Positions 22,388 through 23,846 of a stretch of 64,000 nt of DNA are shown here, piece by piece. The stretch is from a bacterium (GTDB taxonomy: Bacteria; Patescibacteriota; Saccharimonadia; Saccharimonadales; Saccharimonadaceae). The notes below the pieces were generated by a model, which was given only the letters and a program-made list of their open reading frames with translations, made no database searches and was not told where the DNA came from. The DNA lies in NCBI GenBank assembly GCA_030429445.1, contig JAUIFG010000002.1, forward strand, positions 1 to 64,000. The letters are read 5' to 3'. The position numbers were made by a program, and so were the translations under genes. Positions within the stretch are counted from its first letter, which is position 1. Every line of letters begins with the position of its first letter.

Positions 22388-23527
22388 CTAATGAATATAG
22401 GCGTAATAGCGAGCTTGATTCGCGGGAATGATTCGGCCATTCACGACATTCCAACCACCACCAGCGACGTACGCATTCATTTCACTCACGACAATATCAC
22501 CGTTTGGCTTTACTTGCTCAACAATACCAACATGCCCATACCCACCACCGTTCTGAACGATCGCCCCTCGCGACGGCGTGTTGTTGACTGTAAATCGAGG
22601 GTCGAGTTGCGCATAGTACGACCAACTGGCCGCATTACCCCAGTTCGTACCAACCGCCAGACCCAATTCAATACGCCTATCATAGGCATAACGAGTACAG
22701 TTTCCATACGCATAGCCGTTTCCTGCACGTCCCGGTGTGCCGATCTTGATTCTCCATGACGTGCCACCAAATCCTGTACCGGAATTGACGACAGTTTGAG
22801 TTTGGCGTACAGGCGCAGTATAGCCCGGCTGTTGAGTCGTTGGTAAATTACCGCCTGGAATAACAATTTTTGTACCCGCCTTGAGACCACTCAGCTCCAA
22901 GTCATTAAACGATACGATACGTGCCTTGTTTGCGCCATACGTACTGGCAAGCTTATCTAGGGTGTCACTCGATTTAACCTCGTAAAGGATACCGTCAACT
23001 GGAGGGATTTTGAGCTTTTCACCAGCAGAAATCGTATTATTGGTTTTGTCATTCGCCCATCGAATTGTCTTTGCTGATACACCATAAGCATTGGCGATCG
23101 AGCTCATCGTATCGCCCTTTTTCACCTTATAGGTAATAACGTCGCGACTACTTGCTGTTGGTTGTATGATCTGTGGTTTGATAATTGCAGAGTCGTCTGT
23201 CTGTGCCAGTTTACTTTCGATGGCCAACGATGCAACGCGCTCAGCGACATTATCTGCTACAGGCATATTTGTCTGTTGGGCAATGTTTGATGCAATGTTT
23301 GATGCAACTAGCTTATCAACAGCATCACCCTCAATGACAAGCGGAGTTGTCTCGGAGGTTTGCGTCGCATTTGCTACTGATTCAGTCGCCACCTGCTGAG
23401 GTGGCTTGTAGCCCAAAGCAATGATAGCAATAATAATCGCAAACACACTGCCATATACCATCCACGCTGAAAGCTTTGGCATTTTTACCTTGCGGCGCAA
23501 TGGATGATCGACAACCCGCTGCTTCAA
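22388..23527 (-). CDS. LysM-LysM-CHAP cell-wall hydrolase
   Basis: 379 aa as drawn from TTG. One membrane helix (MVYGSVFAIIIAIIALGY), two LysM repeats (YKVKKGDTMSSIANAYGV and YEVKSSDTLDKLASTYGA), a linker, and a C-terminal CHAP amidase/endopeptidase domain with Cys in GNCTRYAYDRR and His in GGGYGHVGIVEQV. Cuts peptidoglycan stems or cross-links. The frame is open upstream, and AGGAG (23583-23587) lies 7 nt before an in-frame ATT at 23575, giving a 16-residue longer N-terminus (ISNQSNADNDQSKVAY). This rare start may be the real one. Confidence 0.85.
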   Translation of the reverse strand: MKQRVVDHPLRRKVKMPKLSAWMVYGSVFAIIIAIIALGYKPPQQVATESVANATQTSETTPLVIEGDAVDKLVASNIASNIAQQTNMPVADNVAERVASLAIESKLAQTDDSAIIKPQIIQPTASSRDVITYKVKKGDTMSSIANAYGVSAKTIRWANDKTNNTISAGEKLKIPPVDGILYEVKSSDTLDKLASTYGANKARIVSFNDLELSGLKAGTKIVIPGGNLPTTQQPGYTAPVRQTQTVVNSGTGFGGTSWRIKIGTPGRAGNGYAYGNCTRYAYDRRIELGLAVGTNWGNAASWSYYAQLDPRFTVNNTPSRGAIVQNGGGYGHVGIVEQVKPNGDIVVSEMNAYVAGGGWNVVNGRIIPANQARYYAYIH

Positions 23528-23575
23528 ATAAGCAACTTTTGATTGATCGTTATCTGCGTTCGATTGATTACTAAT

Positions 23576-23811
23576 TCCGATTCTCCTGCCATCCGTATTG
23601 CTACAAAGGCTTCTACCTTACTTTGTCTTGCTTCCGTTGAGACGAAGCGGGGGTGTGCGATCGACCTATTATGGTTAATTATTGCTGAATATCTTACTCG
23701 ATACCCTTACGACATTTATCGGCAGACCCATCTACGTATCACGCTATCGTCTTCCGTTCAGCATCATCTGTCATTCTGCCATAAATAGGAGTGAAAGATC
23801 GTAAATGTGTA
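23576..23811 (-). ncRNA. long structured 5' leader of the LysM-CHAP gene (candidate cis-regulatory RNA)
   Basis: About 236 nt between a predicted start site and the coding region. 23775-23786 pairs with 23714-23726 (12 bp with one bulged base, 48-nt interior). Within it AUGCU pairs with AGCGU. Nearer the gene are GCUUC/GAAGC (9-nt loop) and ACAAAG/CUUUGU hairpins close to the SD. No plus-strand gene in this stretch is convincing. I do not recognise a known riboswitch class. Confidence 0.55.
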
Positions 23812-23817
23812 CCTACC

Positions 23818-23846
23818 ATTTTACTAATAGTTGTATTATGTGTCAA
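23818..23846 (-). promoter_or_regulatory. sigma-70-type promoter of the LysM-CHAP gene
   Basis: Minus strand TTGACA (23841-23846), 17-nt spacer, TAAAAT (23818-23823). This is the best -35/-10 match noticed in the window. Confidence 0.7.

Follow-up and report, generated by a model that had tools for sequence, protein, structure and literature searches.

The locus lies on the minus strand of the window, the 64,000-nt stretch of DNA analyzed here, and carries a gene for a membrane-anchored wall hydrolase behind a promoter and a folded leader (Table 1). As had been predicted from the sequence, the downstream gene encodes both a LysM and a CHAP domain. The textbook promoter that the original prediction had placed about 236 nt before the gene was likewise found, TTGACA-17-TAAAAT giving 11 of 12 consensus matches. 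Transcription is predicted to start at about 23811, some 236 nt before the AUU (23575). This layout recurs at the homologous loci, essentially all of which have a -35 of TTGAC type and a -10 of the form TAnnnT, the latter ending 45-140 nt before the start of the Rfam model described below.

Table 1. Features of the lysM-TM7 locus, in window coordinates
Feature	Position	Strand	Details
Promoter	23818..23846	-	-35 TTGACA 23846-23841; 17-nt spacer; -10 TAAAAT 23823-23818
5' domain closed by helix P0	23729..23811	-	CAUUUACG 23807-23800 with CGUAGAUG 23736-23729
RF03005 lysM-TM7 RNA	23583..23727	-	76.1 bits; gathering threshold 61.5; E 3.3e-12
Helix P1	23725-23721 with 23617-23613	-	CUGCC with GGUAG; mostly invariant, little covariation
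Helix P2	23714-23711 with 23627-23624	-	UGUC with GACA; mostly invariant, little covariation
Helix P3	23706-23701 with 23656-23651	-	significant covariation across relatives; encloses invariant GGUCGA 23666-23661
Hairpin P4	23648-23644 with 23634-23630	-	GCUUC with GAAGC; comparative alignment, covariation
Hairpin P5	23588..23610	-	GNRA loop GCAA 23601-23598; adjoins the Shine-Dalgarno sequence
Shine-Dalgarno sequence GGAG	23583..23586	-	7 nt before the proposed AUU start codon
Proposed AUU start codon	23573..23575	-	7 nt after GGAG; frame open into the LysM-CHAP gene
Hairpin H2	23518..23536	-	GUUGCUU..AAGCAGC; about +39 to +57 from AUU
Membrane-anchored LysM-CHAP wall hydrolase gene	22388..23575	-	395 codons from AUU, plus stop

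A search with the Rfam covariance models, which the original prediction had recommended, matched the leader to RF03005, the lysM-TM7 RNA, above the gathering threshold and over the full length of the model (1-138). It was the sole match in the window up to E = 1. There is hardly any doubt that the leader is a lysM-TM7 RNA; what had been put forward as a possible new riboswitch class is a real, conserved and already catalogued orphan cis-regulatory RNA. The name lysM-TM7 was not met in the literature searched. The family is said to come from the work of Weinberg and colleagues in 2017, where the AUU start discussed below may already have been noted.

The closest named relatives of the window's organism are Candidatus Saccharibacteria. 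RF03005 matches were found in 99 of 393 genomes of the class, nearly all of them within the window's own family, and the window's genome has a single copy. One hundred loci of RF03005 type were compared. The gene behind the RNA, its sole target, encodes LysM at 99 and CHAP at 98 of these. One genome (G255) has two lysM-TM7 RNAs, L005 and L036, each ahead of its own LysM-CHAP gene. At a congener locus (L102, G061:C20), which encodes a LysM-CHAP protein with 66% identity, most of the leader fold is lost and the RF03005 match is absent; it keeps GGAG-N7-ATT, and an ATG is also present 1 nt after the GGAG.

Fold of the leader and its extensions

The consensus secondary structure comprises helices P1 to P5, all present in the window copy, and shows covariation across relatives. 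In an alignment of 94 distinct rows, 10 of 26 pairs covaried significantly. These are located in P3, P4 and P5, with P3 and P5 the most strongly covarying helices, and no significantly covarying pairs fell off the structure; one further pair, with E 0.06, lies within P5. Covariation was assessed with a home-made procedure, a G-test with average-product correction, for which inferred substitutions were redistributed along the tree to give the null. The GNRA loop of P5 is highly conserved, and the core has many invariant unpaired bases in a multi-helix junction. Folding of the single sequence gave a stability no better than that of shuffles (z +0.55), so the evidence for structure is comparative. 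Conservation and covariation across relatives support a structured, covarying cis-regulatory RNA, as was proposed for the long region before the hydrolase gene, and P5 is a strong hairpin close to the Shine-Dalgarno (SD) sequence, where hairpins had been anticipated. The outcomes that would have refuted the proposal, missing covariation or conservation or a coding gene in the region, did not materialize.

A 12-bp long-range helix (23714-23726 with 23775-23786) had also been proposed. The complementarity is present, with a duplex z of 3.7 relative to shuffled upstream DNA, and does not form part of the conserved structure. As a conserved switch the helix was rejected: it is missing even in congeners and competes for the 5' strand of P1.

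Between the transcription start and the Rfam model lies a 5' domain of about 80 nt, which the model omits. At most homologous loci the RNA begins with AGCACAUUUGUG or a similar sequence, and helix P0 forms between this end and the nucleotides directly preceding P1. Among 26 relatives, 12 of the 24 P0 pairs had both partners changed, and paired cells made up 89.5%, compared with 34-50% when the arms were slid. Across 99 loci the arm score was 23.6 for a leader's own arms, 15.0 for arms swapped between species and 13.0 for shuffled arms. The window copy folds with P0 by pairing CAUUUACG against CGUAGAUG.

Structure was also detected on the coding side. A hairpin centered at about +24 from the AUU, H1, is common in relatives and is diverse in sequence at a fixed position. 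In 74 dereplicated genes its stem score was 10.6, compared with 5.8 after shuffling of codons (z 9.5) and 6.9 when arms were swapped (z 7.8). A second, weaker stem peak occurs near +50 across relatives. In the window copy H1 is weak and H2 is present.

Start codon of the hydrolase gene

The codon following GGAG is ATT at 95 and ATC at 5 of the 100 loci, with a spacing of 7 nt at 88. ATG and ATA were also permitted by the script that chose the codon, and were never selected. The frame is open from the AUU into the gene at the loci read. In the window the first in-frame ATG, GTG or TTG downstream of the AUU is a TTG at 23527. The next such codon is more than 40 codons away in 25 genomes and more than 60 away, past the conserved membrane segment, in 15. 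Since many genomes have no ATG, GTG or TTG able to replace it, comparison of the sequences makes it very likely that the gene starts at AUU or AUC in the RNA-carrying relatives. If so, the start of the gene is likely misplaced by gene callers across the class.

Two observations bear against the AUU. About seven relatives have an in-frame ATG, GTG or TTG 6 nt before it, only about 1 nt from GGAG, and the excess of third-position changes downstream of the AUU is modest. The NGU of codon 2 is kept whether the residue is Arg or Ser, which points to additional constraint at the RNA level around the AUU. On an alternative reading the AUU belongs to the conserved RNA and is no start at all; translation would then begin further on, at TTG 23527 or ATG 23482-23480 in the window, and a standard ORF listing does choose a downstream NTG. 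Nevertheless, such a start would cost the 15 genomes with no NTG for 60 codons their membrane anchor, and it is hard to square with the open frame and the regularly spaced SD. It is improbable.

A mini-hairpin at the start codon, ACGA-UAAU-UCGU, was considered and found unconvincing, with 3.21 of 4 pairs formed compared with 3.06 for swapped arms. In a 400-kb scan of one relative, ATT placed behind an SD and followed by a long frame was not enriched over other codons, so ATT is no general start there. A second secreted coiled-coil/CHAP gene (L119, G009:C7:130403-134248, minus strand) lacks any in-frame NTG over 33 codons; its likely start reads GGAGGGGCAAGACTATCCGTACT, a hint of non-canonical initiation at AUC in a similar CGUA context.

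In two genera of the class (g3 and g9) RF03005 was not found, and the same gene begins with ATG. Among 28 loci with no RF03005 match (25 groups, mostly from other families), an SD-placed ATT, ATC or ATA was found at 23. The scan, run automatically, gave wrong calls at two g3/g9 loci, at which ATG is evident on reading. GGUCGA was present in the leader at 14 of the 28, and 13 of these 14 have an ATT, ATC or ATA start. The link between RNA and AUU is strong, but the losses behind it are modest in number.

Probable control of translation

No intrinsic terminator was found in the window's leader, so control is probably exerted on translation, and translational control in cis is likely. Overall, the locus is probably best explained by a lysM-TM7 leader that acts in cis on the translation of one LysM-CHAP hydrolase gene, the core fold or a ligand gating access of the 30S subunit to the AUU. 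Initiation at this codon would be weak and discriminated against by IF3, as for infC and Streptomyces sigR. P5 ends just before the SD and H1 begins about 18 nt after the AUU, which would leave a single-stranded 30S landing site of about 30 nt with both SD and AUU inside it. Folding of the P1-P4 core, or the binding of a ligand, would decide 30S loading and might keep a dangerous wall hydrolase low until it is needed. We infer that this involves a switching step at the SD.

The explanation can take two forms. The RNA may be a true riboswitch, a form we propose tentatively, in which the invariant core (GUCG, GGUCGA, AAGAC) and the GNRA-capped P5 bind a small molecule, P5 exposes or masks the SD by docking, and the AUU merely lowers output. 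The many invariant unpaired bases in the junction, the invariant GNRA loop and the position directly on the SD are consistent with this. Nevertheless, the 100 loci have one target gene, while the majority of riboswitch classes act on several genes within a pathway, and no conserved switching helix, that is, no conserved anti-SD or alternative SD pairing, was seen in the homologous leaders compared.

A leader that responds to a protein or to the state of the ribosome is conceivable, and we regard it as rather uncertain. IF3, acting through the AUU, or an RNA-binding protein would set translation at a structured 30S landing site with no small ligand involved. The strict AUU/AUC, a start of the infC class, points this way, as do hairpins flanking a gap the size of a ribosomal footprint and the single target gene. 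There is also a precedent in Streptomyces sigR, whose non-canonical GTC start is repressed by IF3 (PMC5472188). Against it stands the elaborate core, which discrimination by IF3 would not by itself require.

Of 147 class genomes, 140 contain IF3. Its two halves, PF05198 and PF00707, were not found in the whole-genome assembly of the window's organism (G000). Since congeners have infC, this is probably an assembly gap. Loss of IF3 was rejected as the reason for the AUU, given its presence in congeners and across the class. The infC genes of the class (L125-L136) themselves have no ATG, GTG or TTG at the SD, and ATT, ATC or ATA is their likely start; IF3 autoregulation therefore appears, from these sequences, to be conserved in Saccharibacteria. 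By analogy, initiation of the lysM-TM7 gene would, on balance, be expected to depend on IF3.

A c-di-AMP riboswitch of ydaO type, raised originally by functional analogy with the wall hydrolase genes of Gram-positive bacteria, is extremely improbable and can be considered effectively excluded, as no ydaO match was found by Rfam in the window and diadenylate cyclase (PF02457) was detected in none of 147 class genomes by a search that was positive in 11 of 14 controls; only c-di-AMP supplied by a host remains.

Returning to the translational leader, one device may operate across the class, although this extension is put forward with reserve. The folded leader of about 235 nt and the coding hairpin would form a dedicated landing site that licenses the IF3-disfavored AUU of a single wall hydrolase gene; RNA and AUU would be kept or lost together, with AUG appearing once the RNA is gone.

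Comparison with known systems

The window copy has the helices of RF03005, a LysM gene downstream and Saccharibacteria as its nearest kin. The Rfam model, in contrast, ends at GGAG; it covers neither the 5' domain closed by P0 nor the AUU and the hairpins in the coding region. The same start layout occurs in relatives from other families of the class, but most of these relatives score below the RF03005 model. The AUU/AUC start, the P0 5' domain, the coding hairpin and the class-wide recurrence of AUU-type starts were not found in searchable sources. The locus appears to add new anatomy to a known orphan RNA family, with a gene start at AUU and a folded region longer than catalogued. Placement of the AUU, extension at both ends and the ruling out of c-di-AMP turn this orphan into a testable device. 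The ydaO riboswitch also precedes wall hydrolase genes, but resembles the leader in neither sequence nor structure, and the synthase for its ligand was not found in the class.

The textbook gene with an AUU start is infC, and discrimination by IF3 has been demonstrated experimentally both there and at sigR. To our knowledge, neither E. coli infC nor sigR carries the lysM-TM7 fold, and we know of no comparable structured leader at sigR. The feature typical of both genes, a conserved non-NUG start behind an SD, was found here by comparative sequence analysis (ATT 95, ATC 5 of 100). As in infC autoregulation, discrimination by IF3 would be expected, and the infC genes of the class are likewise without an NTG start; here, in contrast, the target is a wall hydrolase, the leader is large and covarying, and there is no feedback on IF3 itself. 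The likeness to sigR lies in a conserved non-canonical start, missed by gene callers, on a gene that does not encode a translation factor, although the codon there is GTC instead of AUU (PMC5472188). If correct, the proposed mechanism would provide a handle on how these very small bacteria, which depend on a host, keep a wall-cutting enzyme in check, and would join a structured leader to the infC class of start codons.
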